40,448 nucleotides of DNA from Terriglobia bacterium (GTDB lineage: Bacteria > Acidobacteriota > Terriglobia > Terriglobales > Acidobacteriaceae), in contig JAIQFZ010000037.1 in the NCBI GenBank assembly GCA_020073015.1, forward strand, positions 1-40,448. Reading direction: 5' to 3'. Every line of letters starts with the position of its first letter. Position 1 is the first letter of the stretch. Shown piece by piece: positions 17,211 to 38,958 of the stretch. A program made the position numbers and the translations under genes. The notes under the pieces were generated by a model. It saw only the letters and a list, made by a program, of their open reading frames with translations. It searched no databases and was not told the DNA's origin.

Positions 17211-17277
17211 GAAACTCACTTAGAGCCTGTAACAAAACCCTCCTGAGCTCGCAAACGAGTCTCGCTAACCACAACAA

Positions 17278-21720: not shown

Positions 21721-21986
21721 GAGCAGTACACCTCCTCCCGTTGAGGGATTGTACCGTGCCCATGATGCGGGTTGCAGGAATAGAGGGCTTTTGTTAGACG
21801 CTCTTAAGGAGTGCTGAAGAGTTCTATCACACTGTTACAACTCACTCTATGCTGAGTTCATTTCAAACGGTAAATAACTGTCCTATTGGTCCTTATGAGG
21901 TCAGTGTGAGATCGGCACTAGATCGGTTGACCGAGTCAGCTCAGCCAAGAGACACTCCCGCCCTAGTCGTGGAGTAGCACTCTTAG

Positions 21987-22001
21987 CAGGCTGCTGAAAA
22001 A
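21987..22001 (+). repeat. Left terminal inverted repeat of the 1287-bp IS
   Basis: CAGGCTGCTGAAAAA, matching the reverse complement of 23259-23273 at 14 of 15 bases; TTAG precedes it. Confidence 0.9.
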
Positions 22002-22039
22002 CTACTCCTAATCCACAGCCATGTATGGTACGAGAGGGC

Positions 22040-23134: not shown

Positions 23135-23258
23135 GGTCGGGGCGAAAGTGTGTCTGGTTGAACCTGGATCCGACCAAGAGGCGCCCGAAAAACCAGAAAT
23201 CAACTCGCTTGACATCACCAACGATGAGAAACCAGAAGAGAAACCCCGAATCCATCAA

Positions 23259-23273
23259 TTTTTCCGCAGCCTG
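23259..23273 (-). repeat. Right terminal inverted repeat of the 1287-bp IS
   Basis: TTTTTCCGCAGCCTG, the partner of 21987-22001; TTAG follows it. Confidence 0.9.
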
Positions 23274-23277
23274 TTAG

Positions 23278-23800
23278 GGGCTCGCGAGGGAAGTGCTTGA
23301 GCCCGGAACGCGGTTGCTGTGTCCGAACGGTTCCTCGGACCGCCACGGTCACCCTTGAGGGACAACAGGGCGGGCAGCGGCAGTCGGTCGGGTTGACTGG
23401 GACCGCAGTGGTTTCGGGGCAAAGCGCTCCCCGGTCACCCGCGAGCCGGTCCATTTACTGCCACCGCACCTGCTTCAAAGGGTGCGATGTAGATGCCCTT
23501 ACACCCAGACCCCGGACGTCGACGTTGAGCAACTTTGGAAGCACAGACCTGATCATCCTGACCAGCGGGCCGGTCGGACACCTGTGACGCCCGCTTGGGA
23601 GTGCTAGAGTCTTGCACCGTTCGCGTCGGGGCTAGGACCTGTGCGGAGGGTGGCCACGACCGTGGACGACGCGGCCGTTCCTGCGTCAGCCGTGATGGCA
23701 AAGAAGTTGGAAATTAAGGAAGCAGGTTGTGCTATGCTGCTGTCTTACTCATGGCTCGAGGGGGCTCTGACAGCAGCAGGGGTTAGCTGGAGGAGGTGGT
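23278..23800. other. Gap downstream of the IS, mostly decayed sequence
   Basis: About 520 bases with no intact gene. The first 300 may be a remnant of a surface-protein domain (see 23297-23587). Near the end an extended -10-like TGCTATGCT (23730-23738) precedes the LuxR-type gene, but no well spaced -35 is seen. Confidence 0.5.
23297..23587 (+). pseudogene. Possible remnant of an ASH-type (immunoglobulin-like) repeat protein
   Basis: One frame reads RTATVTLEGQQGGQRQSVGL followed by TGTAVV, and later TSTLSNFGSTDLIILTSG. These resemble the end and beginning of consecutive ASH (ASPM-SPD-2-Hydin) repeats that are common in secreted acidobacterial proteins (pattern ATxTxxDNAxGSPQTVxLxGTG then TVTLTNTGSTxLxI). 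The connecting part is degenerate and no start or extra repeats are found, so this looks like a decayed fragment. The resemblance is by eye only. Confidence 0.3.
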
Positions 23801-24487
23801 ATGTCTCTCGAGCGTATTATCGTATTCCTTCTAGCGGAGAATTGTCTGCTCCGCGAAGCTTTGCTTCGAGTACTGCGCAAGAAAGAGGACATTGTCGTAG
23901 CCGGTGCAGCTCCTTTCTCGCCTTCTGCCTTGGAGAAAGTCTGGGCCGCGAATGCTGATGTGGTCCTGTTTGACTCCGCAAGCATCGCATTGACCGGTCC
24001 CCGCCTGGTTTCACGCTTGCGGCAGGCCGGAGAAAACCGCAAAGCCGTTATGGTCGGCATGGAAGAAGATGAGCCCACTTTCTTGCAGGCTGTGGGCGAG
24101 GGAGTGGTCGGCTACGTCCTGAAGGACGCGTCGGCCACTGAAATCGTTCGTGTGATCCGGGCAGTCGCAGCCGGCGAAGCGATTTGCCCACCGCGATTCT
24201 CGCTGTCGCTGTTCCAGTGTGCTGCCCGGGACGTATCCTTCTCGTTCAAATCGCCGCAGAAGATGAAATTCGGCTTGAGCCGGAGGGAGCAGCAACTGGT
24301 CGGCTTGATTCGCCTCGGACTCTCCAACAAGGAGATCGGAAACCGATTAAATCTATCGGAGCAAACCATCAAGAACCATATCCACCGCATTCTGCGGAAG
24401 GTTGGCGCCAGCGATCGTTTGGAGATTGTCGAGCGGTGTCAGTCAGAGAATCTCAGTACTGCTGGCCTCACGAATCTAGCAGTTTGA
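23801..24487 (+). CDS. NarL/LuxR-type response regulator with degenerate acidic pocket
   Basis: A 228-residue regulator: receiver domain at 5-120 and LuxR-type helix-turn-helix at 158-212 (LSRREQQLVGLIRLGLSNKE, then IKNHIHRILRKVGASDRLEI). The phospho-acceptor Asp58 (VVLFDSA) and the conserved lysine K108 (YVLKDAS) are present, but the usual pair of acidic residues after strand 1 is reduced to A-E-N (E13), so Mg2+ binding may be weak. It should bind DNA as a dimer. The start is firm: GGAGGAGG ends 5 bases before ATG 23801. No sensor kinase is next to it. A truncated copy of a close relative's tail is at 15836-15931. Its place at the head of the exopolysaccharide locus suggests that it controls it. 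Confidence 0.88.
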   Translation: MSLERIIVFLLAENCLLREALLRVLRKKEDIVVAGAAPFSPSALEKVWAANADVVLFDSASIALTGPRLVSRLRQAGENRKAVMVGMEEDEPTFLQAVGEGVVGYVLKDASATEIVRVIRAVAAGEAICPPRFSLSLFQCAARDVSFSFKSPQKMKFGLSRREQQLVGLIRLGLSNKEIGNRLNLSEQTIKNHIHRILRKVGASDRLEIVERCQSENLSTAGLTNLAV

Positions 24488-25138
24488 ACGGGACCACTGC
24501 AAACCTATCTCAGGGAGCACGAAGATTGGGCGCCAGCGCTCCTGGATCTTCGCCAGCCCGGATCGCCTACTACCAACATCGTATAGTGCACGCTCTGAAC
24601 TAAACAGTTAGAACCATCGGAAAGAGTCATGGTTTAGCGTGCCAAACGAACCTCGTCAGACTTGCTGTTTCCGATTCCACGATCTGTCCGTGTGATTGTA
24701 GGCTTGCGCCGATGTGGGCGACGCCGAGGCAGCCCAAGCGCATCGAAGAAGCGGGTCGAGGTTGAGCGGCGTGCGTGGTCAGCGGTCAGCGCGAGACCGA
24801 CCCTGCGGCTGGCTTGTGCGAGACGTTCCGGCGCACCGCCCGTTCGGGGGCAGTTCCTTCGTCGGTGCGGCAACGTGGCGACTAGCCCGGCATGAAATCT
24901 TGTGCGTGCTACAGGCGTAGACACTAGTACCATAATTAGAACTATGTTGGTACCGTATGCGAAATAATAAGTACTATTAATCTCGCAATCTTTAGTACTG
25001 CAGATTAGTACCACTACTAAGTGTAGATTGGTACCGCAATTGTGTACCCACGCAGTACATGTGTGCCCTCCTTTGAACATCCGCTTGAGTACGCAATTGA
25101 CTCTTGTCTGAGCTCTCCCAAGGAAGTAGAAGGGTTCG
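24488..25138. other. Long gap between the two receiver-type genes; A+T-rich regulatory segment
   Basis: 651 bases without a credible gene. The reading frames on either strand lack any recognisable protein pattern. The second half (about 24910-25060) is much richer in A+T than its surroundings and contains a dense set of GTAC sites described separately. Confidence 0.6.
24927..25092. repeat. Cluster of nine GTAC palindromes (putative operator array)
   Basis: GTAC occurs at 24927, 24950, 24971, 24995, 25008, 25031, 25044, 25055 and 25089. Nine sites in 166 bases is far above the chance value of under one. Most are preceded by TTA/CTA/TTG and followed by C or T (for example TTAGTACC, TTGGTACC). 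Intervals are 23, 21, 24, 13, 23, 13, 11 and 34 bases, near multiples of 11-12. The cluster ends about 47 bases before the pseudo-receiver gene. Confidence 0.6.
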
Positions 25139-25534
25139 GTGAGGATTACCCTCGTGAAACGTGTGCGAGTTTTGGTCGCAAACCGCCCCCGATTGATGCG
25201 GGAGCTCGTTTTGGCCGTGATCAGCGACCAACCCGACATTGAGGTCATTGGTGAAGTCCAGGATGAGAGCAAACTCGTAGAAGCAGTCGAGGAAGCCCAG
25301 CCCGACGTCTTGATTCTCACTCTCGACGATGCCGAAAAACGCATCGCCCAATGTGGCTTTCTCCTTGGCCAGCATCCGCACATGAGGATCCTTGCCCTCG
25401 CGCCGGAACAAAATCGCGGGCTGTTCTATTCGGCCATTGTAGACGTTCGCACCAAGCCGCTGGAGAGTTCCGAGGCCGGAATTCTGAGCGCCTTGCGGGA
25501 ACATCCATCGATCGTGGGCACGGTACGTAACTAG
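25139..25534 (+). CDS. Stand-alone receiver-like protein lacking the phospho-acceptor Asp
   Basis: A 131-residue protein with the alternating strand-helix pattern of a CheY-like receiver: VRVLVANRPRLMRELVLAVI, IEVIGEV, PDVLILTLDD, MRILALAPE and TKPLES. The acidic pair after strand 1 is A-N (14-15) and the phospho-acceptor position after strand 3 is T61 (LILTLDD), while the K-P pair (106-107) remains. It is therefore probably not phosphorylated in the normal way and may work as a protein-protein switch. No output domain follows. GTG 25139 has AGAAGG 5 bases upstream. It lies directly downstream of the GTAC cluster and upstream of the NusG-like gene. Confidence 0.65.
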   Translation: MRITLVKRVRVLVANRPRLMRELVLAVISDQPDIEVIGEVQDESKLVEAVEEAQPDVLILTLDDAEKRIAQCGFLLGQHPHMRILALAPEQNRGLFYSAIVDVRTKPLESSEAGILSALREHPSIVGTVRN

Positions 25535-25639: not shown

Positions 25640-26212
25640 GTGCTCGAGAACACACTTTCAAATTCCGAAGCGTCCGGGAGCCGTGCTGCTGAGGCTTTGG
25701 CGCCTAGCGAGAAGCTATTGCTGGCCGAGCGATGGTACGCGGTTTCCGTTCGTCCCAGGCACGAGAAGCTGGTTACACGGCATCTCGACCAGCAGGGATT
25801 GAACTGCTTTCTCCCGTTTTACCGCAGCGTGCGCCGCTGGAAGGATCGCCGCAAGGAACTGGATGTGGCCCTATTCCCAGGCTATGTCTTCGTGAGCCTG
25901 AACCTTCGCGACCGTTTGGGCGTTCTTAAGGCTCCCGGAGTCCAGCGATTCGTGACGTTTCAAGGCCAACCTGCCGCGGTCCCGGACTCCGAGATCCGAG
26001 CGCTCGCATCGAGCTTGTCCGCCGGGCTGCGGGCGCAACCTCATCCCTACCTGTGCCAAGGCAGGAAAGTCCGCGTAAAGCACGGGCCTCTCGTGGGTGC
26101 GGAAGGAATCATGATCCGCCGCAAGGAACGCTTCCGCCTCGTGCTCTCGATCGATCTGATCACACGATCGGTGATGTTTGAGGTGGATGAGGGCGACGTC
26201 GAGCCCCTCTGA
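25640..26212 (+). CDS. NusG-like transcription antitermination factor (UpxY/LoaP type)
   Basis: A 190-residue NusG paralogue. The NGN domain spans about 29-125 (RWYAVSVRPRHEKLVTRHLD, FLPFYRSVRRWKDRRKELDV, ALFPGYVFVSL) and a KOW region lies at 140-185 (GRKVRVKHGPLVGAEGI). Specialised NusG paralogues at the head of polysaccharide operons let RNA polymerase read through terminators inside the long transcript; this gene is the first before the export protein and fits that role. GTG 25640 is preceded by CAGGAACGGAACA. The N-terminal 28 residues are extra compared with NusG. It is followed 49 bases later by the export gene. Confidence 0.88.
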   Translation: MLENTLSNSEASGSRAAEALAPSEKLLLAERWYAVSVRPRHEKLVTRHLDQQGLNCFLPFYRSVRRWKDRRKELDVALFPGYVFVSLNLRDRLGVLKAPGVQRFVTFQGQPAAVPDSEIRALASSLSAGLRAQPHPYLCQGRKVRVKHGPLVGAEGIMIRRKERFRLVLSIDLITRSVMFEVDEGDVEPL

Positions 26213-26261: not shown

Positions 26262-29200
26262 ATGTTCGACCACAAACAATTGAAGAAGAGCATCTTGTGT
26301 CTGGCCTGGATTTTCTTGTTTTGCACGGCTGCCCATTCACAGCAGGAATCCCGGCAGGGTGTGGCGCAACGGTCCGGAACGGAAACTGCGGCGCGTGTCC
26401 CTGCCCGCCCTCCCGATATCATCTCGGACAATCTTGAGAGAGTGGCGGCTTCAGCTGATCAGATTCTCGAAGTCTTGTACAAAGAGGCTGGTCTGATGGT
26501 CGAGTTTAAGCGCCTTCTTGCCCAAGATGCGGGGGTGAGCGGGCAGATTCTGGAAGAGTCCGATCTGACTGATGTAGCGGTCGGCGAACGCCTGCGCTCG
26601 GACTTGCGTGCCCGTGTGCTCGCAACGCGGCTCCTGCAGCGGTATGGCTATCTCGTGCCTCGATTGAATCCGGATTCTGACCTCGAAGCCGAGCAAAAGC
26701 TTGTGCGGCAGGAGCGGGCGCAGATGCTCGCGCGCGCCGCCGAGCGCCGCGACACTCTGGTTGAAAATTCAAGCGCTGGCCCTAACGCTGCATGCGATCC
26801 GCGAACCATCCCGGAGTGTGCGCTCCCACCCTCTCTCCCGGAGGATCGTGAAAGTTTGCCGGTGGTCCCGACTGCACCAGGGCGTGCGCCGCGTTCGTCG
26901 GCGCCGTTGCTGCGGGCCGAGGATAATTCACCCAGCCAAATGACGCGTCCGGATGGCACAGGCTTTTCGCCGGATCAACGCTCAGGATATCCGGCCAGCC
27001 TGGCAGCGCCGGAGACCGTGCTCACGGCGGCACGCGTTGAGATTAATCCACCGCTGAACCAGTCGCGGCGCATGGCCGGGTACGGGAGCGGGGAGAATCC
27101 TTCGCTTCCATCCAGCGGCCAAGCAGATCTGCAGTCGCTGTCTCAGCCGGATCCATTATCAAGCGGCGCCGGGATGCCACGGACGGGGCGGGGCTCAGAG
27201 CGATATCCAGCGGGGCGCGATTCTGCTCCTGCGGGCACTACCGACGCGGAGCAAGTGAGGATGGTGCGTCGTCCGAATCCTTACGCAGATGTGCCTTCCT
27301 TATACGACCTCTATGTGCAAGCGGGGGCAACTAATCGGCCTGTCGAGAGGTTTGGTCTCGATGTCTTCCGCAAAGGAACAGCAAATCCGGATTATATTCC
27401 CATGGATCTTCCCGTCGGACCGAGCTATGTCGTCGGTCCCGGTGACAGCCTCTCGATTGATCTCTGGGGAGGGGTTTCACAGCGACTGCTCCGCACAGTG
27501 GACCGGGAGGGGCGCGTGGCTCTGCCGGAAGCGGGGCCGGTCCTTGTCTCCGGACGAACGCTTGGCGATGTGCAGGAAATGGTACAACACACCCTGAGAA
27601 CACAATTCCGCGATGTTTCTGCAGACGTTGCACTGCTTCGGCTGCGCTCGGTGCGTATGTATGTGGTTGGCGATGTCACTTCACCGGGAGCGTATGACGT
27701 GAGTTCGCTTTCCACTCCGTTGAATGCGCTGTTCGTGGCGGGTGGTGTGACATCGCAAGGCTCCCTCCGGCGCCTTCAACACTATCGAGGAAAGCAGTTG
27801 ATTGAAGAAGTAGACGCATATGACCTGCTGCTCCACGGTATTCGGGGGGATCTGCAGCGAATCGAGAACGGCGATTCCCTGATGGTCCCGCCGCTTGGTC
27901 CGGTGGTGACTGTAGACGGCATGGTGCGCCGCCCAGCAGTCTACGAGTTGCGCAATGAAAAGACACTCGTAGACGTACTCGATCTTGCTGGAGGAATTCT
28001 CCCCGCTGCGGCACTGCGGCACATTGAAGTCCAGCGCCTGGTAGCGCATGAAAAGCGCACGATGATGAGCGTCGAGATCAGCGACACCAGCGACTCCGAA
28101 GCGGTTCGCGCGCAAATGAGCGGGTTCGAAGTACAGGATGGTGACGAGATCCACATCTTTCCGATCGCGCCTTATAACTCGGAGTCGATCTATCTCGTAG
28201 GGCATGTCTTGCGTCCAGGCCGGTATTCCTACAAGCCGGAGATGAAGCTCACCGACCTCGTGACTTCCTATGCTGACCTGCTTCCGGAACCTTCGACCCG
28301 TTATGCCGAGATCATCCGGCTGCATGCGCCAGACTACCATCCGGTTGTCGAGACCTTTGATCTAGCCACCGCTCTCGAACATCCCGATAAGGCCCCTAAG
28401 CTAGAGCCGCTCGATACTGTGCACATTTTTGGACGGTACGACTTCGAGTCGGATCCAGAAGTGCTCATCACCGGTGAGGTCCGCGCGCCGGGACGATATC
28501 GCACGTCTGGCCAGCAGCATTTACGAGATGCGATTTATCAGGCTGGAGGCGTGACACCGGATGCCTGGCTTGATTCGGCACAGCTATTCCGCCGGCAGCC
28601 AGACGGGACCACCAGAGTCTTTAGCATCAATTTGAGCGACGCACTCGCGGGAGATCCTTTGAATGATGTTTTGGTCGAGCCGCGCGATCGGATCCTAGTG
28701 CATCGCCAACCGGAACAAGTTTCGCCACGCAGCGTGTACGTAAGAGGTGATGTCGCGCGGCCGGGCCGCTATCCTCTCGCTGCCAATATGAGCGTCTCGG
28801 ACCTGGTGCGCTCTGCTGGCGGATTGCTACGCAGCGCGAATCCCGAGGGCGGTGACCTCACGCATTATGCGATCTCTAATTCGTCCGGGGAGCGCGTGCC
28901 CGCCGGACACCAGGACCTAAGTCTGGTTGCCGCTCTCGCCGGAAAGGAAGACCAGAATTTGCCGCTCCGCGACGGCGATGTGTTGACCGTGCCCCAGCAG
29001 GCTAACTGGAACGATATCGGCGCGACGGTCACTCTGCGCGGGGAGGTCAGAAAACCAGGTGTTTATGGCATCTGGCCTGGCGAACGCCTTAGTTCGTTAC
29101 TGAAGCGAGCTGGCGGTTTCCTGCCAACAGCATATCCGCGCGCAGCGGTATTCGAACGAATCGAAGTTCGTGAACTTCAGCAGAAGAGTCGCCAGGAACT

Positions 29201-29777
29201 GATCCAGCGGCTCGAGCAGGAGTCCACGGTGGTAAAGACTTCGGTATCGACGTCCGGAACCGAGGAAGCTGCCTTGCAACAGGCGGCTATGCTGCAGCGC
29301 CAGCGCGTATTGGATGCACTGCGAAAAGCTCCTGTATCGGGGCGGCTTGTCATCCATCTTCGCCCGGACCGCAAAGACTATGCGGGATCGCTTGAGGATA
29401 TCGAGCTTCGCGCGGGCGATTCGCTCACGATCCCCAAGGAGCCCGGAGGAGTGCTGGTCATCGGGCAAGTGTATAACGCTAACGCTCTTACTTATGTGCC
29501 AGGGAGGAATGCTGGCTGGTATCTGTCCCGTGCGGGAGGCGCGACACACCTCGGAGACAAAAATGCAATCTTCATCGTCCGCGCGGACGGTTCGGTCACG
29601 TCCGGTAAGCAGGGCAGCCTTTGGTCCGGAGGCGTGCTCTCGGCGACAACGGGTCCGGGTGACACGATTGTGGTACCGGAGAAGCCGATTCTGGGCAGTA
29701 GCGCTATGAAAAACTTTGTAGCCATCGCGCAGATCGCGTCGTCTGCCGCATTGGTTGCGGCAGTTGCAATTCCCTAA
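26262..29777 (+). CDS. Large polysaccharide export protein with multiple SLBB domains
   Basis: A 1171-residue protein with a signal peptide (SILCLAWIFLFCTAAHS) and a Pro/Ser/Arg-rich stretch of about 300 residues. The Poly_export domain begins near 388 (YVVGPGDSLSIDLWGG), followed by seven SLBB-like units starting near residues 463, 546, 640, 731, 823, 919 and 1063 (for example VYVRGDVARPGRYPL, VTLRGEVRKPGVYGI). The C-terminus is hydrophobic (AIAQIASSAALVAAVAI). It should form the periplasmic/outer-membrane export channel, like Wza but far larger. I see no lipobox cysteine at the signal peptide end (the cleavage region reads AAHSQQ), so it is probably not a lipoprotein. ATG 26262 follows AAGAGAG. 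Confidence 0.88.
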   Translation: MFDHKQLKKSILCLAWIFLFCTAAHSQQESRQGVAQRSGTETAARVPARPPDIISDNLERVAASADQILEVLYKEAGLMVEFKRLLAQDAGVSGQILEESDLTDVAVGERLRSDLRARVLATRLLQRYGYLVPRLNPDSDLEAEQKLVRQERAQMLARAAERRDTLVENSSAGPNAACDPRTIPECALPPSLPEDRESLPVVPTAPGRAPRSSAPLLRAEDNSPSQMTRPDGTGFSPDQRSGYPASLAAPETVLTAARVEINPPLNQSRRMAGYGSGENPSLPSSGQADLQSLSQPDPLSSGAGMPRTGRGSERYPAGRDSAPAGTTDAEQVRMVRRPNPYADVPSLYDLYVQAGATNRPVERFGLDVFRKGTANPDYIPMDLPVGPSYVVGPGDSLSIDLWGGVSQRLLRTVDREGRVALPEAGPVLVSGRTLGDVQEMVQHTLRTQFRDVSADVALLRLRSVRMYVVGDVTSPGAYDVSSLSTPLNALFVAGGVTSQGSLRRLQHYRGKQLIEEVDAYDLLLHGIRGDLQRIENGDSLMVPPLGPVVTVDGMVRRPAVYELRNEKTLVDVLDLAGGILPAAALRHIEVQRLVAHEKRTMMSVEISDTSDSEAVRAQMSGFEVQDGDEIHIFPIAPYNSESIYLVGHVLRPGRYSYKPEMKLTDLVTSYADLLPEPSTRYAEIIRLHAPDYHPVVETFDLATALEHPDKAPKLEPLDTVHIFGRYDFESDPEVLITGEVRAPGRYRTSGQQHLRDAIYQAGGVTPDAWLDSAQLFRRQPDGTTRVFSINLSDALAGDPLNDVLVEPRDRILVHRQPEQVSPRSVYVRGDVARPGRYPLAANMSVSDLVRSAGGLLRSANPEGGDLTHYAISNSSGERVPAGHQDLSLVAALAGKEDQNLPLRDGDVLTVPQQANWNDIGATVTLRGEVRKPGVYGIWPGERLSSLLKRAGGFLPTAYPRAAVFERIEVRELQQKSRQELIQRLEQESTVVKTSVSTSGTEEAALQQAAMLQRQRVLDALRKAPVSGRLVIHLRPDRKDYAGSLEDIELRAGDSLTIPKEPGGVLVIGQVYNANALTYVPGRNAGWYLSRAGGATHLGDKNAIFIVRADGSVTSGKQGSLWSGGVLSATTGPGDTIVVPEKPILGSSAMKNFVAIAQIASSAALVAAVAIP

Positions 29778-29783
29778 GCGCAC

Positions 29784-32339
29784 ATGACGATGCGACTTCA
29801 GGTGGGGACCCTCGGAGCGATGCTGTTGTTCAACGTTTGCTTGGCGAGGGTGTCTTTCGCACAGGCGCAGGGAGTGGAAACCGCCGCGCCGGAAACGACA
29901 CCGGAGGCGAAAGACCGTTCTTCATCGAATGATCTACCGGATGGACCTATACAAGCAGGTGGGGTGGCGAAAACAACCGGGGGGTCAGACCTGGGATTGA
30001 TGCAAAGGTTCGAGGGCGACCAGAGAGAAATTTGGACGAGTCCCGGACGACTTCGGTTTTCCGATACGGTATGGCTTGTTCCGCTCAGTGGTATCACGGC
30101 GGGCCTCTTCGTGACGGATAGCGATTTCAGCAAGCACCTGTCCCAGAATCCGACAACCATCAGTCACTACAACACGCTCTCAAACGCCGGAGTAGCGGCA
30201 CTCGTGGGCGGTGCCGGAGGAATGTGGTTCTTGGGACAAGTCAGGCACAACGAGCACTGGAGTGAGACTGGATTCCTCGCCGGCGAAGCGGTGCTGAACA
30301 GTCTGGTAATGGTCGAGGGATTGAAGTACTCACTGCGTCGCGAACGACCGAATCAGGGCGATGGCAGCGGTCCATTTTTTCAGAGTGGGGGCACTTCCTT
30401 TCCATCGGAACACGCCGCTGCGGCATGGTCGGTGGCCGGCGTCATCGCGCACGAATACCCTGGCCCGCTCACCAAGATCATGGCCTACGGTTTGGCATCT
30501 CTGGTCTCTGTTTCCCGGGTAGGGGCTCATCAACATTTTCCCTCCGACGTGCTCATCGGCAGCGTAATCGGTAACCTTGTCGCGCAGAGCATTTACAGCC
30601 GTCACTACAATCCCGATCTTGGCGGCGGGGAATGGAGATCGATTAGCCAACTCTTTCGTGGCGATGGTACGTACTCTCCAGGGAATCAGGGGTCCCCGTA
30701 CGTTCCGCTCGATAGCTGGGTGTACCCCGCGATGGAGCGCTTGGTAGCACTGGGCTACATTCGGTCGGGGTTTTTGGGAATGCGCCCGTGGACGCGCATG
30801 GAATGCGCACGGCTGCTGGATGAGGCCGACGAGGGGATGCAGTACGACAGCAGCGAAGAGGGTAGTGAACCGCAGAAGATATACTCAGCTCTAGCGGGAG
30901 AATTTAAAGACGAAACCGCGCGTTTAGGCGGCGCTGCCAATCTCGGCTTAAGCCTAGATTCGGTTTACACCCGCTTTACCGGGATCTCGGGCACGACGCT
31001 GCAGGATGGGTTGCACTTCGGACAGACCGTGATCAACGATTACGGGCGACCGTATGGAGAGGGCTTCAACAATGTGACCGGATTCACCAGTCACGGGGTG
31101 GCCGGGCCGTTCTCATTCTACGTGCAAGGCGAGTACCAGCACGCACCCTCTGTTCCCGCACTTCCTCTTCAAGCGCGGCAGGTTATCCAAACTGTTGACT
31201 TCAACCTTCCGTCAGCGCCACCAGGTACCCCCGTCCCAGTCGTGAATCAGATGGACTTGCTTGTGGGCTACGTAGGATTGCAACTGGAGAACTGGCAGAT
31301 CACTTTCGGCAAGCAGCCGCTTTGGTGGGGAGAAGATACGAGTGGGCCAATGTTGTCGAGTACAAATGCTGCGTCTATCCCAATGCTCCAAATCAATCGT
31401 GTGAAACCTCTCAATCTACCTAGCATCTTTGGGCGTCTTGGGCCGATCCGATTTGATTACATCCTGGGGAGGCTCAGCGGCCAACACTGGGTGAATGGGC
31501 CAAACGGCTTCACAGGCTCGTGGACGAAGACTCTGAGTGATCAGCCATTCATCGTAGGGCAGAAGATCAGCTTCAAACCGTCGCCTAACCTTGAACTGGG
31601 TGTTAGCTACACGGCTCTTTTCGCTGGCAGCGGAGCTCCATTCACGACTCATACGCTTCTAAAAGCCATGTTCTCAAGCGGAAATGGCAATCCGGGAACT
31701 GCATCAGACCCCGGTGACCGACGAGGCGGGTTCGACTTTGCTTATCGAATTCCCAAGATGCGAGATTGGCTCACATTTTATGCGGATGCCTTTACAGATG
31801 ATCAAGTAAATCCTTGGTTTGCTTGGGATAAGACCGCGCTTACTTCTGGTCTTTACATGTCTCGAGTGCCAGGGATTCCCAAACTCGACTTCCGAGTGGA
31901 GGGGGTTTACACAGATCTGCCAGGAGGGACGGCAACCGTACAACACGGATTTTTTTACATCAACGACCGCTACGTGAGCGGCTACACGAACAACGGAGAT
32001 CTGATTGGAAGTTGGATTGGGAGGCAGGGGCAAGGCGCTCAGGCGTGGACCACCTACTGGTTCGGCCCGAAGAACAAAGTGCAGTTGCACTTCAGGCATC
32101 AGAAGGTCAGCCGAGAGTTCATCCCCGACGGTGGATCACTGACCGACCTCGGCGTATCAACTGATATCTGGGTGCGTTCCAACCTCGCCCTTTCCGCTTG
32201 GGTGCAACACGAACGCTGGCTGTTTCCTGTGATTCAGTCGAATGCTTCCAGAAACGTGACGGCAGCGGTGCAAATTCTGTTTGAGCCGCGTAAATTGTTC
32301 CAGCATTCTGCCGCGAATGCGCCGGGAGACCAGCCATGA
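29784..32339 (+). CDS. PAP2 phosphatase fused to a Wzi-like capsule assembly domain
   Basis: An 851-residue exported protein. After a signal peptide (GAMLLFNVCLARVSFAQA), residues 150-270 form a PAP2 phosphatase with all three motifs: KYSLRRERP (K-x6-RP), SFPSEHAAAAW and SRVGAHQHFPSD. From about 300 it matches Wzi-type capsule assembly proteins: VYPAMERLVALGYIRSGF, then WQITFGKQPLWWGEDTSGPM and a beta-rich barrel to the end. Wzi proteins attach or organise polymer at the outer membrane; the PAP2 part might act on lipid phosphates such as undecaprenyl diphosphate. Having both on one chain is unusual. It starts 6 bases after the export gene; the ribosome site is weak. Both domains look complete. 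Confidence 0.85.
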   Translation: MTMRLQVGTLGAMLLFNVCLARVSFAQAQGVETAAPETTPEAKDRSSSNDLPDGPIQAGGVAKTTGGSDLGLMQRFEGDQREIWTSPGRLRFSDTVWLVPLSGITAGLFVTDSDFSKHLSQNPTTISHYNTLSNAGVAALVGGAGGMWFLGQVRHNEHWSETGFLAGEAVLNSLVMVEGLKYSLRRERPNQGDGSGPFFQSGGTSFPSEHAAAAWSVAGVIAHEYPGPLTKIMAYGLASLVSVSRVGAHQHFPSDVLIGSVIGNLVAQSIYSRHYNPDLGGGEWRSISQLFRGDGTYSPGNQGSPYVPLDSWVYPAMERLVALGYIRSGFLGMRPWTRMECARLLDEADEGMQYDSSEEGSEPQKIYSALAGEFKDETARLGGAANLGLSLDSVYTRFTGISGTTLQDGLHFGQTVINDYGRPYGEGFNNVTGFTSHGVAGPFSFYVQGEYQHAPSVPALPLQARQVIQTVDFNLPSAPPGTPVPVVNQMDLLVGYVGLQLENWQITFGKQPLWWGEDTSGPMLSSTNAASIPMLQINRVKPLNLPSIFGRLGPIRFDYILGRLSGQHWVNGPNGFTGSWTKTLSDQPFIVGQKISFKPSPNLELGVSYTALFAGSGAPFTTHTLLKAMFSSGNGNPGTASDPGDRRGGFDFAYRIPKMRDWLTFYADAFTDDQVNPWFAWDKTALTSGLYMSRVPGIPKLDFRVEGVYTDLPGGTATVQHGFFYINDRYVSGYTNNGDLIGSWIGRQGQGAQAWTTYWFGPKNKVQLHFRHQKVSREFIPDGGSLTDLGVSTDIWVRSNLALSAWVQHERWLFPVIQSNASRNVTAAVQILFEPRKLFQHSAANAPGDQP

Positions 32340-32397: not shown

Positions 32398-32613
32398 GTG
32401 GCGCCCACACTACAACGAGCGCTGGAATCAGGCGAAGACTCAATTGTCTATCTCCGGCAGCTCTGGGGGCACCGCAGGATGCTGTCCCGCGTCGCGGTAG
32501 GCGCGCTACTCACCAGCATGCTGATCGCTTTCCTTATTGCTGCACGATACGAATCCACGTTACCGTTTGAATCCTCCGCAAGTAGGGACAGACAGCGCCA
32601 AAGATTAAGATGA
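32398..32613 (+). pseudogene. Truncated duplicate of a Wzz N-terminal segment
   Basis: The frame reads LRQLWGHRRMLSRVAVGALL, then TSMLIAFLIAARYEST, and matches the first transmembrane region of the Wzz protein at 34303 (LLWKHRRLLSRVAVYALL and on). Bases 32461-32560 equal 34435-34534 at 90 of 100 positions. After YEST the similarity ends and a 17-residue tail follows, so only the first membrane helix remains. The frame is open from 32281; GTG 32398 is a possible start giving 71 residues. Its TGA overlaps the ATG of the sugar transferase as ATGA, so it may still be translated and coupled. Interpretation: a partial duplication, either a relic or a small membrane protein. Confidence 0.6.
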
Positions 32614-34094
32614 ACCCCTCGATCGGTCTGACAAGTTTACCGAAAGCACAATCCAGTCCCGCTTCGGATCTGGCCCTGGTTACGCCAATCGCGCGCCGTA
32701 CGTCCGCTGCTCGCTTCCGAAGTTACCTGACGAAGTTGGAAGTGGTGGCTGACTTCGTCACTGTGATTGGCGCCGTCATGTCCGGCTATTTCATGTACTA
32801 CTTCTTCGGGTTAGGAAAGCAACTTTTCTATCCCAGATCGGTCGCTCTGGGTATCTCGGCTACCTTCGCGGCAATTATCGTGCTGATGCTGGACCGCGTC
32901 GGTGCATACTCGAGCGGAACCAGTTTGTTGCGCGTCCGCGAAACTGAGCACGTGCTCCGCGTGTCGATGCAGGCGCTCGGTTTCGCCTTTGCCGTGAGCT
33001 TCTTCACGAGCTTCCTGTTTTCGCGCTGGTTGCTCATCATGGCGCTGGGGCTCGTGCCACTGTTCCTCTTTGTGCAGAAGCACCTTGTGTATTTGCTCGT
33101 GCAGTCCCTCCACTCAATGGGCTATGGCATGGAGCGAGTACTGATCTACGGTTCGGGGTCAACCGGACGGCGAGTGTACTCGGTTCTGCGCCGTTCTCCA
33201 AAGCTTGGCTTGGAACCGGTGGCTTTTGTGGATGACAACGCGGCCAAAGTCGGCTGCGCCATTTTTGAGTTGGGATACGAGAATCGGCGTTCAGCGTCCG
33301 TGATGCGGGGTCCAATTTCCCGACACTTGGTTACGCAGTGCGCCGCCGACCTGGTGGTTATCGCCATCCCCTCCCTTCAACGTGAGAAGTTTCAACAGGC
33401 AATCGAGGAAGCTCTGGCAGCAAACGCGCGCGTGTCATTCGTCCCCAGCCACTTCCTTCACTCAGATCCATGGGTTGGCTTTCAGGACATCGATGGTGTT
33501 CTGCTGGCTTCCTTCAGCCCCCACCCGAGGCGCTTCACCTACGAGTGGGCCAAGCGAATCTGCGATTTCGGCGGCGCTGCGATTCTTCTGACTCTCGGGT
33601 CGCCGCTGTTCCTTTTGCTTGCCATTCTCATCAAGCTCGATTCCAAGGGGCCAGCGCTGTTTCGCCAGGAGCGTGTGGGTCTGAACGGGCGCCGCTTCCG
33701 CATGTTCAAGTTTCGCACGATGTACACCGACACGCCCAGCTACGCCTTTTCGCCGAAGAAATCCGACGATATCCGCATTACCCGTGTGGGCCGTTTTCTT
33801 CGCCGCACGAGTCTGGATGAGCTCCCCCAGCTACTGAATGTGCTCGTGGGCGATATGTCGCTGGTCGGACCTCGTCCGGAGATGCCCTTCATTGTCGAGA
33901 CCTACGCCGAACGCCATTTTCAGCGTCTGCAGGTAGAGCCAGGAATCACTGGACTCTGGCAACTCAGCGGTGACCGCAGCTACCTCATTCATGAAAACAT
34001 TGAATACGACCTTTATTACATCCAGCACCGAAACTTTTTCATGGATCTGGCGATCTTGCTGCACACCACGATCTTTGCGATGCGGGGAGTTTGA
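32610..34094 (+). CDS. Polyprenyl-phosphate sugar phosphotransferase (WbaP/WcaJ type)
   Basis: 494 residues. The N-terminal part has several membrane helices ([64 protein letters not shown]), followed by a Rossmann-like region ([16 protein letters not shown], near 174) and a final membrane helix. The catalytic sugar transferase domain begins near 307 ([17 protein letters not shown]) and includes [40 protein letters not shown] and GLWQLSGD. The enzyme moves a sugar phosphate from a nucleotide sugar to undecaprenyl phosphate, the first step of repeat-unit synthesis at the inner membrane. The sugar cannot be told. The start overlaps the preceding frame. Confidence 0.93.
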
Positions 34095-34111: not shown

Positions 34112-34306
34112 ATGTCGGTTAACACTCAGCTAGGAACACGAGAACCGTTAGTGAAGAGTCCGAGACAAGACGCAGTGATCCACGAGATCCAGTTTCCTCT
34201 CCCCGCAACTGCTGGTCCAAGGCGGCGCAGTCGGTCGCGCAGCGGGTCACCGCATATGATGGCAACAGCCAATAGAGCCGGCCAAGTGTCCAGGAAGAGT
34301 TTGTGA
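34112..34306 (+). CDS. Possible short frame between sugar transferase and Wzz
   Basis: A 64-residue frame from ATG 34112 fills the 208-base gap and ends in TGA overlapping the GTG of wzz-like 34303. It is rich in Arg and Ser (GPRRRSRSRSGSPH) and matches no family that I know. Overlap with the next start could mean coupling, but chance is quite possible. Confidence 0.2.
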   Translation: MSVNTQLGTREPLVKSPRQDAVIHEIQFPLPATAGPRRRSRSRSGSPHMMATANRAGQVSRKSL

Positions 34307-35700
34307 AGCAAACGAGGGAATCCACAGCCCGCTTGGTTGAAAACCCGCCGGAAATCGAGCCGGCCACCACCAGTTGCCTGGACGAAGGGCACGCCCCGGG
34401 TCGGGCCTGCGACGGCGTGGAATGGCTCTGGCTGCTCTGGAAGCACCGGCGGTTGCTGTCCCGCGTCGCGGTATACGCGCTACTCACCAGCACGCTGATC
34501 GCTTTCCTCATTCCTGCACGATACGAATCCACGTCACAGCTTATGCCACCAGATAGCCAGTCCACCTCCGGCCTTGCCAGCGCTGTTGCCTCGATGTCGG
34601 GCGGTGCTGGCGGGCTTGGGGGAATCGCCGGCGAACTCCTCGGCCTGAAGAGCACCAGCGACACATTTGTTGGAATCCTCTCGAGCCGCACGGTGCAGGA
34701 CAAACTGATTCAGCAGTTCGATTTGAAGAAACTCTATTCCGACCGCCGGATGGAAGATGCGCGCAAGGACGTGGCAGAACATACCGCCATCTCCGTGGAT
34801 AGGAAGAGCCAGATCATAAGTATCACTGTGACGGACAAGAGCCCGCAACGGGCAGCCGCAATGACTCAAGCCTACGTCGAAGAATTGAATCACCTTGTGG
34901 CTGAATTAAGCACGTCATCCGCACGTCGCGAACGCATCTTCCTCGAGGGGCGGTTGCAGGCTGTCAGTCATGACCTGGAAGAGTCAGAGAAAGACTTCAG
35001 CCAGTTCGCAAGCAAAAACACGGCGATCGATATCAAAGAGCAAGGGAAAGCCATGGTCGAAGCAGCAGCGACGCTGCAGGGCCAGTTGATTGCCGCTCAG
35101 TCCGAATATGAGGGACTCAAACAGATCTATACCGACAACAATGTGCGCGTACGTTCCGTGAAAGCACGAATTGATGAACTCAGGCATCAACTTGAGAAAC
35201 TGGGCGGCAAGGGCGAAAGTGTGACGAGTGTGTCCGACCAGCCAGGCGACTCCATGTATCCCTCGATCCGGAAACTGCCCCTGCTGGGCGTCCAGTACGC
35301 GGATCTATACCGGCGGACAAGGATTCAGGAAACCGTGCTCGAAACGCTCACGAAAGAGTACGAACTGGCAAAGGTCGAGGAAGCCAAAGAAATTCCTACG
35401 GTAAAGGTGCTCGACGTGGCCAACATCCCGGATAAGAAATCCTCTCCGCACCGATTGCTAATCACTCTTCTCGGTACAGCTTTGGCATTTTCCGGCGCCG
35501 TAACATGGGTATTTGGGAGCACTGTATGGCAAGAAACCGACTCTAGGGATCCGAGAAAGGTATTTGCCCGTGAGGTTTTGTCGACGGTTTCGGCGCGGTT
35601 GCCCCTGCTCTTGCGAAACCACTCGGAACACCATTTGCCCCCCAAGAGCTTCTGGAGAGGGGTGCGCAAAGACCTGGTGAAACCGGAAGATTCGGAATAG
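34303..35700 (+). CDS. Wzz-type chain-length determinant protein
   Basis: 465 residues with the Wzz layout: first membrane helix at 51-71 (LLSRVAVYALLTSTLIAFLI), a large periplasmic part with coiled-coil character (about 200-330), and a second helix near 385-405 (LLITLLGTALAFSGAVTWVF) after the proline-rich block NIPDKKSSPHR. It controls length of the polymer and bridges polymerase and export channel. The GTG start has AGGAAGAG 5 bases upstream. The C-terminal tail of about 60 residues has no Walker motifs, so no tyrosine-kinase domain is fused, and none is encoded elsewhere in the window. A piece of this gene is duplicated at 32461-32560. Confidence 0.9.
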   Translation: MKQTRESTARLVENPPEIEPATTSCLDEGHAPGRACDGVEWLWLLWKHRRLLSRVAVYALLTSTLIAFLIPARYESTSQLMPPDSQSTSGLASAVASMSGGAGGLGGIAGELLGLKSTSDTFVGILSSRTVQDKLIQQFDLKKLYSDRRMEDARKDVAEHTAISVDRKSQIISITVTDKSPQRAAAMTQAYVEELNHLVAELSTSSARRERIFLEGRLQAVSHDLEESEKDFSQFASKNTAIDIKEQGKAMVEAAATLQGQLIAAQSEYEGLKQIYTDNNVRVRSVKARIDELRHQLEKLGGKGESVTSVSDQPGDSMYPSIRKLPLLGVQYADLYRRTRIQETVLETLTKEYELAKVEEAKEIPTVKVLDVANIPDKKSSPHRLLITLLGTALAFSGAVTWVFGSTVWQETDSRDPRKVFAREVLSTVSARLPLLLRNHSEHHLPPKSFWRGVRKDLVKPEDSE

Positions 35701-35743
35701 AGCCAGAATTTCGCAACGAACAACTGGGTGATCACGGTGATCA

Positions 35744-37363
35744 GTGTTACAAAGATTCTTTAGAACGGAACGAGTTCCGCTTGGAACACAATTAACTCGG
35801 AACGTCTTATACAACGGCGCACGTCTCTTGGTTCTGGCGCCGCTGCCGTTCGTCCTCATTCCTTTTTTCTTGAGGAAACTTGGAACATCAGGCTACGGGA
35901 CCTGGGCCATGTTTCTCGCCGTAAGTGGCGCTACCTCTCTTGCCGACGTTGGGCTGGTCACGACGCTGAGCAAACACGTGGCTGAGTTTTATGCGCTCAA
36001 GGACTTCCGGTCCTTGAGCCGATTCATTAATACAGGTTTTGTTCTTTATCTAGGACTCGCTTGCCTGCTTGCTGGAACACTCTGGGTCAGTTCTCCCTTT
36101 CTGCTCAGGACGTTGTTTCGCACCAGTTCAGTTCCAACTCCGGAACTACGAATTCTATGGCGTTACTTAATATTGTTGGTATTCGCGAATACCATCACCT
36201 TGCTGTTTTCTTCGGTTGTGACCGGCCTGCAGCGCATGGACTTGAGTACCTGCATCGGATCGATAAACCTCTTGTTGAGCGCTAGCCTGAGTGTGATGTT
36301 TCTCAACTGGAGTTTAAGCCTTCGAGGCATCCTTTATGCGTACGTGATCGCTGCCTGGTTTACCTCGCTGGCCTACATCTACGTCGTGCACCACCTGTTG
36401 CCTGAGATAAAGCTCAACCCGGCAGCTTGCCGCTGGACGGTGGCCAGAGAGATTCTAAGTTTCAGCATGAAGACGTACATCACACAAGTCGCTGTAGTGA
36501 TCCACAATCAAACCGAAAAGATCTATCTTGCGAACTTTGTCGGCGTAGCGTCGGTGGGGTGGTACGACATTGCCAGCGATCTAGCGCTCAAGCTCCGCGG
36601 AATCCCGGGCTTGGTCTTGGCGCCCGTCATGCCTGCAGCTTCTGAATTGCATGCTCTCACTGATCGAAGCAGGCTCGCTCATCTTTACTACCGAGCCCAT
36701 AAGTATCTGGCTTTTATCGGGGTGCCCTTGGTGGTCTATGTTGTTTTCGTTTCTAGAGGCTTCGTGCAGCTCTGGGTTGGTCCTACTTTGAGCGTCATTG
36801 CGGTGCCGCTAAGTGTCCTGCTGGTCGTCAATTTTATCAACTTGACTACTGGCCCGGGTCTCCAAATTCTGGTCGGAGGCGCAAGGTTGAGGCCTGGTGT
36901 GTATAGCGCTCTTCTCGGAATCGTGTTGAACCTGACATTGAGTCTGTTCTTGATCCGAGCCTATGGCTTCCAGGGCGCCGTCATAGGGACGTCGCTCTCC
37001 ATGGTGATCGCATCCGTCTTCTTCCTGTACATGTTCCATTGCGAAACTGCTGGATCGTACTCCAACTTAATTCGGAGCGTCTACGCAAAGCCGATCCTTT
37101 GTTCTTTGCTGATCGTTGGTCTCCTCTGGGCAGTGACGCGTGTCGCACAACCATCCTGGCGGAGACTAGCGACCGAAGGTGTTATCTTCGGCGTGGCGTA
37201 TCTCGTTCTGCTCCTGGTATTTCGATTTTTCGACAGGCTTGACTTAGAAATCGCAGAGAGGTTTCTTCCCATCCCTGGCATGGCAAGGAGATTGATTCCG
37301 GATGTTGAACTGGGCAGCACGCTACTTCCCGATTCTGAGAGTACTCAAACAACAATTGGCTGA
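35744..37363 (+). CDS. Wzx-type flippase (oligosaccharide repeat-unit transporter)
   Basis: A 539-residue membrane protein with about 12-14 hydrophobic segments and the usual start of the polysaccharide-synthesis (MOP) family: NVLYNGARLLVLAPLPFVLI, then FLRKLGTSGYGTWAMFLA and LADVGLVTTLSKHVAEF. It should flip the undecaprenyl-linked repeat unit to the periplasm. Start GTG 35744 is inside GTGATCACGGTGATCAGTG, which has two direct GTGATCA copies; ribosome site weak. The 3' end overlaps the methyltransferase gene by 62 bases, showing tight coupling. Confidence 0.9.
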   Translation: MLQRFFRTERVPLGTQLTRNVLYNGARLLVLAPLPFVLIPFFLRKLGTSGYGTWAMFLAVSGATSLADVGLVTTLSKHVAEFYALKDFRSLSRFINTGFVLYLGLACLLAGTLWVSSPFLLRTLFRTSSVPTPELRILWRYLILLVFANTITLLFSSVVTGLQRMDLSTCIGSINLLLSASLSVMFLNWSLSLRGILYAYVIAAWFTSLAYIYVVHHLLPEIKLNPAACRWTVAREILSFSMKTYITQVAVVIHNQTEKIYLANFVGVASVGWYDIASDLALKLRGIPGLVLAPVMPAASELHALTDRSRLAHLYYRAHKYLAFIGVPLVVYVVFVSRGFVQLWVGPTLSVIAVPLSVLLVVNFINLTTGPGLQILVGGARLRPGVYSALLGIVLNLTLSLFLIRAYGFQGAVIGTSLSMVIASVFFLYMFHCETAGSYSNLIRSVYAKPILCSLLIVGLLWAVTRVAQPSWRRLATEGVIFGVAYLVLLLVFRFFDRLDLEIAERFLPIPGMARRLIPDVELGSTLLPDSESTQTTIG

Positions 37364-38000
37364 AACGGACTCGCTCTTGGAGATTGGTTCGGGAAGTGTT
37401 GGTATCGGAAAGTTCCGTCACGCTCCCTTTGTCGGGTGCGATATCAGTTTCCCCTTTCGTCCAAAAGCACCCATGCGTCCGGTGGTTGCTAGTGGGACGA
37501 TGCTGCCCTTTGGCGATCGATCCTTCGATGCCGTGGTGGCGTCAGATGTGTTGGAGCATGTTCCACCTGATCGAAGGGGCGCCCTGATCCAGGAAGTGTT
37601 ACGAGTGACGCGTAAAGTTGCAATCTTCGGATTTCCTTGTGGTCCGCGGGCCTTTGCCTATGACCAGATGCTCGCGGACGCTTATGACAAGATCTGGCAA
37701 GATAGGCCGGTCTGGCTGCAAGAGCATATGCTTCATCCGTTCCCCACCGAAAGCATGTTTGACGGTCTAAACCAAGATTGGATCGTGAAGAGCTTTGGAA
37801 ACGAGAGCTTAGATTTTCATTACTGGGTCATGCGGAAAGAGATGTATCGCCTTTGGAATTATGTCTTCCGCGTCCTGCTGTCTGCGTTGCCTCGACTGAT
37901 CGAAGGCCTTCTCCGGCGCGCCGACCGTGAGCCCTTTTATCGCAAGATCGTACTGGTCCGTCGGCGGTCGAATTCCGAGTTGTTAGCGGTGAATCCGTGA
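37302..38000 (+). CDS. SAM-dependent methyltransferase (class I)
   Basis: 232 residues with the class I fold: motif I LLEIGSGSVGIGKF (25-38), acidic end of strand 2 in GCDIS (D47), and the motif FDAVVASDVLEHVPP (75-89). C-terminal sequence ADAYDKIWQDRPVWLQEH resembles sugar-linked methyltransferases of polysaccharide loci. Likely methylates a sugar or lipid-linked intermediate, but the substrate is unknown. ATG 37302 lies inside the flippase gene (62-base overlap) and the TGA overlaps the next GTG, so all three are translated together. Confidence 0.85.
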   Translation: MLNWAARYFPILRVLKQQLAETDSLLEIGSGSVGIGKFRHAPFVGCDISFPFRPKAPMRPVVASGTMLPFGDRSFDAVVASDVLEHVPPDRRGALIQEVLRVTRKVAIFGFPCGPRAFAYDQMLADAYDKIWQDRPVWLQEHMLHPFPTESMFDGLNQDWIVKSFGNESLDFHYWVMRKEMYRLWNYVFRVLLSALPRLIEGLLRRADREPFYRKIVLVRRRSNSELLAVNP

Positions 38001-38866
38001 AGCCGATTAGTGTTGTCATCCCGACATACAACCGGTGTGACACACTGAAAAAGGCGCTTGTTGCCTACCTGGATCAGACTGCCTTGCAGAGTATTGCCGA
38101 GATCCTGGTGGTGGATGACGGCTCAACCGATTCCACGGGCGGCGTTGTCGAGCTCATGGCGCGGGAGTCCGTCGTTCCTATCCGGTACCTTCTGCAGGAA
38201 AACAAAGGGCCGGCCGCAGCTCGCAACGTAGGAATCAGAGAAGCTGCCGGTGAGCTCATCCTGTTTACGGACGACGACATAATTCCACAGCGCGATCTTG
38301 TTGCCCAGCACCTCGAGTGGCACAGAAACTTCCCCGGTGAGGAGACTGCAGTCCTGGGGTATGTGACGTGGGCGCCCGAAATAAGCTCTACGCCCTTTAT
38401 GAAGTGGTACGGTTTGGAGGCGCTTTTTTCTTATGCTGAATTAGCGGGCCGGAGCAAGATCGATTACCGATATTTCTATACGTGTAATATCAGTCTGGGC
38501 AAGTACTTTCTCCATAGGAATGGCATTTTCGATGAAGACTTCAAAGTAGCCGCTTGGGAGGACATAGAGCTCGGCTTCAGGTTGGATAGAGCGGGGATGC
38601 GGCTCCTGTACAACCCTAACGCGATGGCATATCATCACCAACACATTTCATTTGAAGACGCATGTCGTCGGGCCAGGAAGTCAGCAGTCGCCGCAGAAGT
38701 CTTCAAAAGGAAAGAAGCTGGGCAGCGACTACGCACAACGTCAAGTCTGAAACGGTATGTCAAGAAACAGCTTGCGCTGCCCCTCTCACCACTCAAAAGC
38801 TTCATGGATTCCGCACTGCCTTTACCGTGGATAATCTACAGAATGATGTTTCGGATCTACCGGTAG
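37997..38866 (+). CDS. Family 2 glycosyltransferase
   Basis: A 289-residue GT-A enzyme. The N-terminus ISVVIPTYNRCDTLKKAL, the VVDDGSTD nucleotide motif (38-45), the metal motif TDDD (91-94) and the catalytic-type WEDIELGFRLDRAG (187-200) are all present. It should transfer a sugar from a nucleotide donor to the lipid-linked repeat at the cytoplasmic face. Start GTG 37997 overlaps the TGA of the methyltransferase gene. Donor and linkage cannot be predicted. Confidence 0.93.
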   Translation: MKPISVVIPTYNRCDTLKKALVAYLDQTALQSIAEILVVDDGSTDSTGGVVELMARESVVPIRYLLQENKGPAAARNVGIREAAGELILFTDDDIIPQRDLVAQHLEWHRNFPGEETAVLGYVTWAPEISSTPFMKWYGLEALFSYAELAGRSKIDYRYFYTCNISLGKYFLHRNGIFDEDFKVAAWEDIELGFRLDRAGMRLLYNPNAMAYHHQHISFEDACRRARKSAVAAEVFKRKEAGQRLRTTSSLKRYVKKQLALPLSPLKSFMDSALPLPWIIYRMMFRIYR

Positions 38867-38958
38867 GTCAGGACCGCACGTGGATCCGCTCTCTCCTGTA
38901 GTTTTCGGCGGGGGTAAAAGTTATATTGCGCCATCGGACGTGACTGTCGTTGACGTCT

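Follow-up and report, generated by a model that had tools for sequence, protein, structure and literature searches.

A phased array of GTAC sites as a putative multi-site operator upstream of an acidobacterial exopolysaccharide operon

The window analyzed here, a stretch of 40,448 nucleotides from a Terriglobia bacterium, contains an exopolysaccharide locus downstream of a dense array of GTAC palindromes, with a gene for a LuxR-type regulator on the other side of the array (Table 1). An earlier note, made from the letters of this DNA alone, had placed nine GTAC sites in 166 bases within an A+T-rich island of a 651-bp region between two open reading frames, and this description is borne out. 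The nine sites stand where they had been reported, the GC content at 24920-25096 is 0.407 against 0.584 for the window (and 0.687 at 24700-24900), and the gap holding the array spans 24488-25138, the minus-strand open reading frames listed across it being taken as spurious. The receiver-like gene that follows can be read from either of two GTG codons. The one at 25154, preceded by TGAGGA and opening a reading in which VKR is common to the relatives, is probably the true start, since the one at 25139 coincides with the predicted start of transcription.

Table 1. Features of the array, its promoter and the flanking genes (window coordinates).
Feature	Position	Strand	Basis and remarks
NarL/FixJ (LuxR-type) atypical response regulator with pseudo-receiver and GerE HTH; candidate binder	23801..24487	+	Pfam GerE 2.3e-14, Response_reg 9.2e-11
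Array of nine GTAC sites	24927..25092	.	Starts 24927, 24950, 24971, 24995, 25008, 25031, 25044, 25055, 25089
Promoter-proximal site: GTAC at 25089, followed after four bases by the TTGAAYCTT-like element TTGACTCTT (25097-25105)	25089..25105	+	Logo of 44 anchored loci and alignment
Putative weak -35, TTGTCT, overlapping end of proximal element	25104..25109	+	17-bp spacing to -10
Putative -10, TAGAAG (many relatives have an ATACT-like sequence)	25127..25132	+	Comparison with relatives
Aspartate-less receiver-only protein	25154..25534 (ORF can start at GTG 25139)	+	No Pfam match; AlphaFold/Foldseek receiver fold
NusG-like protein	25640..26212	+	Pfam NusG 5.5e-21
SLBB / Poly_export polysaccharide export protein	26262..29777	+	Pfam
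PAP2-Wzi capsule assembly protein	29784..32339	+	Pfam
Sugar transferase (Bac_transf)	32610..34094	+	Pfam
Wzz, flippase-type, methyltransferase, glycosyltransferase and Wzy_C genes	34303..40344	+	Pfam

Two DDE transposase reading frames lie upstream of the regulator gene (both within 20915-24487, a span that ends with this gene), and the gene is codirectional with the operon in the window and divergent in four relatives (G002, G006, G012 and G017); taken together, the transposases and the switch in orientation make a local rearrangement upstream of the array likely. Some 93 bp of the 3' end of the regulator gene (24377-24468, plus strand) are repeated at about 15840-15931 on the minus strand, where the repeat overlaps a reading frame (15672-17219, minus strand) in another frame and still reads HVHRILRKVGANDRLEIVERCQPEN. 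The same genome also carries a second copy of the module with GTAC sites of its own (G000:C191; L077, 1-7852), in which the regulator is 83% identical over its first 138 residues, where the contig ends, and the receiver-like, NusG-like and SLBB proteins are 67%, 59% and 48% identical, respectively.

The density of the array is, as the earlier note had held, far above chance. In 20,000 dinucleotide shuffles of 24890-25138 (249 bp) nine GTAC sites never occurred, and the maximum of eight was reached three times. GTAC is in general excess over the window as a whole (117 occurrences against 67 expected from shuffles). With the array excluded, at most four are counted in any 166-bp stretch that begins with a GTAC. 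Among the other 4-mers, GCGC matches the count of nine at some point of the window. The context [TC]T[AG]GTAC[CT], which had been attributed to most of the sites, is matched by five of the nine (24927, 24950, 24995, 25008 and 25031), and the consensus over all loci is TTRGTACY. Across the 5.5-Mb genome to which the window belongs we found ten RGTACY-type triples with short gaps, five of them in the array, and 82 loose GTAC triples, the reversed-pattern controls being higher (45 and 393, respectively) because their composition differs. Pairs of the form RGTACY-N5-RGTACY number 19 across 31 genomes, against 111 for a reversed pattern of other composition, and the single such pair in the genome of the window falls outside the array. 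This genome is thus devoid of any other comparable set of RGTACY triples, and the similar density at unrelated places against which the earlier note had cautioned is absent from it. Single GTAC triples do occur elsewhere in the genome in 69 of 81 relatives, and it is therefore density and phase, rather than triples, that mark the array. Microrepeats of 7 bp of the GTACTGG type (G012:C194:130086-130180 and similar) inflate GTAC cluster counts in several genomes of the genus. A genome lacking the module carries three RGTACY-type sites together with a promoter-like TTGACT...ATACAAT pair (L055, G066:C3:150879-150944).

A main result of the comparative analysis is the persistence of GTAC sites upstream of the receiver-like gene in related genomes. 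Homologues of the receiver-like protein were collected, regardless of GTAC, from 81 relatives, from named GTDB genomes and from 399 genomes of the class; the closest 30 GTDB matches include Acidobacteriaceae, Candidatus Sulfotelmatobacter, gp1, gp2, Terriglobia and other acidobacterial metagenome-assembled genomes. Removal of 11 duplicates left 59 loci, and a further four were set aside (L198, at a contig end, and L092, L099 and L104, which equal L083, L085 and L086) to give a set of 55. The 300 bp upstream of these genes contain 220 GTAC sites against 62.5 expected from base composition (z 19.9), a count in which the loci are not independent because they share descent. At least one, two, three and four sites are present in 53, 48, 43 and 35 of the 55 loci, respectively, so that the conservation in related acidobacterial loci for which the earlier note had proposed to search is indeed found; the nine sites of the window are the highest count in the set, the other loci ranging from 0 to 7. 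GTAC is also the most enriched 4-mer, followed by AGTA and GGTA, which overlap it, and by AAAA (z 7.1). The next palindrome with at least three copies, AATT, reaches that number in 10 of the 55 loci, against 43 for GTAC, and the leading 6-mers are AGTACC/GGTACT (90 against 7.7 expected) and GTACCA/TGGTAC (75 against 7.7). Compared with the rest of the same loci, which is largely coding, GTAC is about six-fold enriched; CTAG and TTAA are enriched three- to four-fold as well, and part of this contrast with coding DNA is therefore general. In a held-out set of 34 loci (40 less six duplicates) the signal recurs, with 92 sites against 38 expected and at least one, two and three sites in 32, 25 and 17 loci.

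No GTAC is present upstream in two loci, L087 (G032, which has both the regulator and the receiver gene) and L197, and a single one is present in five (L086, L111, L112, L115 and L175). In L197 and L111 the upstream 300 bp correspond to the coding end of a tandem copy of the receiver gene, and the first copies in these genomes have three GTAC sites each, including an 11-bp pair. Such tandem duplications, with the GTAC sites upstream of the first copy, were observed in G216:C71 and G343:C416 (L197, L111, L294 and L327). The second receiver promoter of G350 has a perfect proximal element (9 of 9, see below), yet a single GTAC occurs in its 300 bp upstream, and the nearest 165 bp are free of them. 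A search for a variant motif in 12 gp2-like loci with few GTAC sites yielded none, TGGTAC/GTACCA being their top 6-mer.

The conservation of the sites is not accompanied by conservation of the sequence around them. When the intergenic region of the window was compared by blastn with the other 54 upstream regions, matches were obtained in five only, all of them within 25039-25149. Outside the proximal promoter the sequence thus turns over while the motif and its phase persist, a pattern that is the mark of selection on putative binding sites. Judged by this conservation, the array region is a real control region.

The arrangement of the sites adds to this picture. The gaps between successive starts in the window are 23, 21, 24, 13, 23, 13, 11 and 34 bp. 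Over the 55 loci, 33 of 167 nearest-neighbor gaps are exactly 11 bp and 61 fall at 10-13 bp; elsewhere in these loci no such peak is seen. Relative to a promoter-proximal element that could be anchored with a score of 8 or 9 out of 9 in 44 of the 55 loci, GTAC positions cluster near -8, -31, -43, -54, -65, -87 and -98. The 162 sites located from -130 to -5 in these loci show a period of 11.3 bp with a power of 40.3, a value that 5000 random shifts of entire arrays (maximum 18.3) and 5000 random placements all failed to reach. The anchor element was derived from the same discovery loci as this first test, and the clean test is the one on held-out loci: with period and phase fixed beforehand, the 42 sites of the 20 anchored loci (out of 34) give a component of 0.47, and none of 20,000 random sets did as well. 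The outer sites of the window (-170, -147, -126 and -102) are off the strict phase. Repeated sites, helical phase with a promoter element and conservation across species, the held-out loci included, come together here, and they support the multi-site operator that the earlier note had offered as one reading of the array. We refine that reading by assigning the array to the promoter of the downstream operon, which comprises the receiver-like, (NusG-like) and SLBB exopolysaccharide genes.

The element to which the array is phased has the consensus TRGNNC-N4-TTGAAYCTT in the relatives. A putative -10 of the ATACT or TAGAAG type follows at a distance of about 22 bp, and a poor -35 begins where the element ends. 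A spacing of 17 bp between this -35 and a TAGAAG- or TAAAAA-type -10 is seen in the window and in five relatives, both boxes are weak, and a stricter sigma-70 promoter scan found no canonical promoter. Recognition of TTGAAYCTT by an ECF sigma factor was set aside on the grounds that its distance to the -10 seems to exceed the spacing typical of ECF promoters. For each of ten module-bearing genomes, all of them represented in its training set, a 60-nt model of the proximal promoter (R1) ranked the receiver promoter first (E 4e-5 to 0.037); other matches begin at E 0.25, and the best in four genomes without the module has E 0.37. The ten top-match promoters carry 3-8 GTAC sites in 165 bp and the ten weaker matches examined, out of 13, carry 0-1, counts that may be out of register in L345 and L350, which are near contig ends; one weaker match (L346) corresponds to the second G350 receiver promoter mentioned above. 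R1 missed the C191 copy of the genome of the window although it was in the training set, and hence the sensitivity of this test is limited. Since the top matches of R1 are receiver promoters and the weaker ones are poor in GTAC, the 23801-type regulator appears to be dedicated to the receiver-like/SLBB type of exopolysaccharide operon.

The two proteins encoded on either side of the array are both pseudo-receivers. Pfam, PDB sequence matches and an AlphaFold model (mean pLDDT 82.5) searched with Foldseek agree in giving the 23801 protein the N-terminal receiver fold and C-terminal GerE/LuxR helix-turn-helix of the NarL/FixJ family, with DevR, NarL and LiaR/VraR as the nearest solved structures and a LiaR/VraR/NarL architecture in Foldseek. 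Nevertheless, its family does not retain the full set of five phosphotransfer residues (acidic pair, Asp, T/S and Lys). With the receiver columns placed by alignment to NarL, the phospho-Asp is kept in 30 of 31 aligned regulators and the Lys in 29, whereas the first residue of the acidic pair is A, S, T, M or I in all 31 and the T/S position is G, D or A in 30. VpsT likewise has an atypical receiver, and c-di-GMP is bound in VpsT/CsgD-like regulators through the motif W[FLM][TS]R; this motif is present in 0 of the 31 regulators. The receiver-like protein read from 25139 or 25154 has no Pfam match, and its AlphaFold model (mean pLDDT 72.8) finds the receivers of NarL, CheB, CheY and RcsB as best PDB matches in Foldseek (E about 1e-4, TM about 0.55). 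In all 11 sequences the acidic pair reads A-N and the phospho-Asp is replaced by A or T, which leaves a receiver fold without the phospho-Asp. By the definition given in PMC12632262, the 23801-type protein is a pseudo-receiver or atypical response regulator.

The earlier note had named both of these proteins as candidates for binding the array. The 25139 protein seems to consist of a receiver only, with no recognized DNA-binding domain, and of the two the likely candidate is the 23801 regulator. Its gene lies at most 1.6 kb upstream in 45 of the 55 loci (19 codirectional and 26 divergent), a lower bound given that several stretches reach only about 1.5 kb upstream. In the other ten (L081, L085, L088, L091, L094, L100, L115, L116, L172 and L192) the cognate regulator is found elsewhere in the genome, 2.8 kb away in G010 (L085) and perhaps on the same contig in G447 (L115). 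Search models were built from the adjacent regulators, and the best 7, 11 or 37 first-look candidates per genome were scored. The scores of the cognate group run from 190 to 330 bits, and those of the LuxR-type proteins that come next do not exceed about 130. Of the 81 relatives, 12 carry the regulator (E <=1e-45), and these are exactly the genomes that carry the receiver gene (E <=2e-31); the 24 genomes of the genus account for 8 of them. The next genome matches the receiver gene at 1.2e-9, and general receivers match 70 of the 81 at E 1e-3. Among the 399 genomes of the class, 61 have both genes, ten the regulator only and one (G135) the receiver gene only, the genomes being mutually related and the counts ignoring kinship. 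G135 has an array-like GTAC cluster and no regulator at E 1e-45. In 11 of 11 regulator genes located away from any array, the 320 bp upstream contain 0-1 GTAC sites, and autoregulation is therefore unsupported. Neighborhood and co-occurrence thus point to the adjacent NarL/LuxR-type regulator as the likely binder.

In light of these results, we consider it probable that the array is a helically phased multi-site operator of the exopolysaccharide operon promoter, most likely bound by the 23801 regulator and acting through cooperative activation. Transcription of the receiver-like, NusG-like and SLBB genes would start at about 25139, from the promoter of the array. Dimers of the regulator would line up along one side of the helix at TTRGTACY sites spaced by about 11 bp, or two to three times 11 bp, and contacts between neighboring dimers would result in a cooperative switch-on of the operon. 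The last and degenerate site (TRGNNC-N4-TTGAAYCTT) touches the poor -35 in what would be the geometry of a class II activator: the last dimer, sitting on the proximal element with its center near -41 if the -10 is right, would contact RNA polymerase and thereby offset the poor -35. The product of the receiver-only gene, expressed from this same promoter, may in turn bind the receiver of the regulator and close a feedback loop. A bolder extension of this scheme, which we regard as speculative and rather unlikely, is a phosphorylation-independent switch made of two pseudo-receivers, in which the number of sites bound by the regulator would set a tunable threshold and the Asp-less receiver would provide feedback. 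If true, array, regulator and receiver would constitute a self-contained control cassette for exopolysaccharide loci of acidobacteria, with a patchy distribution among close relatives.

The sign of the regulation could also be the opposite, with a bound protein or filament silencing the A+T-rich promoter until a signal releases it. The low local GC content (0.407) and the many upstream sites would suit a silencing nucleoprotein, and VpsT inhibits as well as activates according to PMC8754643. On the other hand, the proximal site abuts the -35 instead of covering the start, the -35 is poor as in activated promoters, and only 6 of the 55 loci have a GTAC that overlaps or follows the proximal element. 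It is the location of the proximal site beside a poor -35 that leads us to favor activation, and we deem repression unlikely. Nucleation of a nucleoprotein at the array, the other option entertained in the earlier note, stands as an alternative.

The binder might likewise be some other DNA-binding protein, such as a global regulator or a nucleoid protein, with the LuxR-type neighbor acting elsewhere. The ten loci of 55 without a full regulator gene within 1.6 kb, the array-like cluster of G135 and the lack of arrays at displaced regulator genes speak for it, and a third protein may be compatible with the co-occurrence of regulator and receiver. Yet the motif is not genome-wide (19 RGTACY-N5-RGTACY pairs in 31 genomes; ten triples in the genome of the window, five of them here), and both genes share the same 12 of 81 genomes in a distribution that is patchy within the genus. 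We hence hold another binder to be quite improbable, and a genome-wide nucleoid site was set aside in view of the rarity of RGTACY pairs and triples elsewhere in the genome of the window.

Reading the GTAC pairs as RNA structure elements of a leader or riboswitch has in its favor that GTAC is self-complementary and that two GTACs lie four bases apart upstream of luxR in four receiver-less genomes. This reading is nonetheless highly implausible and was rejected for the position of the array, its folding and the Rfam results: the putative start lies downstream of the array, the folding of 24915-25138 is unremarkable (z -1.41, with 17 of 200 shuffles as good), no Rfam match attains the gathering score and the only one below it is chance-like, and an 11-bp phase with the promoter is a property of the DNA helix. 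Chance or a local simple-sequence artefact, which the excess of GTAC across the window and the 7-bp GTACTGG microrepeats of some relatives might evoke, is contradicted by the shuffles, the enrichment over 55 loci, the phase and the held-out loci, and its probability is negligible.

The operator model proposed here, with the 23801 regulator as activator, has counterparts in known systems, of which VpsT at the vps promoters of Vibrio cholerae is the nearest functional analogue. As described in PMC8754643, VpsT is a LuxR-type regulator of exopolysaccharide genes whose site of action, the T-box (W-R-[CG]-Y-W-W-R-[GC]-Y-W), is a short and degenerate palindrome centered on W-W, and some of its targets have more than one bound section; the array shares this setting, with binding predicted. 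The GTAC sites are not T-boxes, however, since their center has G/C at -2/+2 (TTRGTACY) where the T-box of that source has Y/R, and they are more numerous and helically phased. The 23801 regulator shares domain order, fold and helix-turn-helix with NarL, DevR/DosR, LiaR/VraR and RcsB, and departs from them in a receiver without the first acidic residue and the T/S residue and in the motif and layout of its proposed operator. For comparison, the NarL heptamer is TACYYMT, and RcsB is a regulator of capsule genes. A dimer of RcsB binds two half-sites, as stated in PMC5829831.

Precedent for the proposed pairing of regulator and receiver may be found in BldM/WhiI of Streptomyces, a heterodimer of regulators, one of them atypical, that serves as a coincidence detector (PMC12632262); by analogy, two phosphotransfer-independent receivers may pair in one pathway here as well. 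In contrast to BldM/WhiI, the second protein is here a receiver alone with no recognized DNA-binding domain, and the interaction is hypothetical. The abstract of PMC12632262 describes as a mystery how pseudo-receivers are switched between their states, and a conserved pair of them around one putative operator offers a tractable case. The downstream genes lend themselves to a further comparison, in that the NusG-like gene stands early in a polysaccharide operon and may be akin to the RfaH/UpxY/LoaP-type NusG paralogues of such operons. Unlike in the RfaH/UpxY/LoaP setting, many array-bearing relatives have no NusG-like match in the stretches examined, some of which are short.

Acidobacteria are common soil bacteria, and in the open-access literature we found nothing on what turns on the expression of their exopolysaccharide loci, nor any description of a GTAC array of this kind. 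The operator, promoter and candidate regulator put forward here thus form a directly testable set for exopolysaccharide control in this group. Some 70 arrays with at least two sites (48 of the 55 loci and 25 of the 34 held-out ones) provide, in addition, a natural series of varying site number and spacing. GTAC sites near luxR in four receiver-less genomes (G165, G316, G360 and G372) have another layout, far upstream, and were not counted as support for the array. In the corresponding stretches (L282, 4950-5460; L281, 5130-5560; L279, 5920-6500; L280, 1925-2560), which have no Rfam match, the GTACs are similarly placed upstream of luxR, and two of them stand four bases apart in what is possibly a short hairpin.
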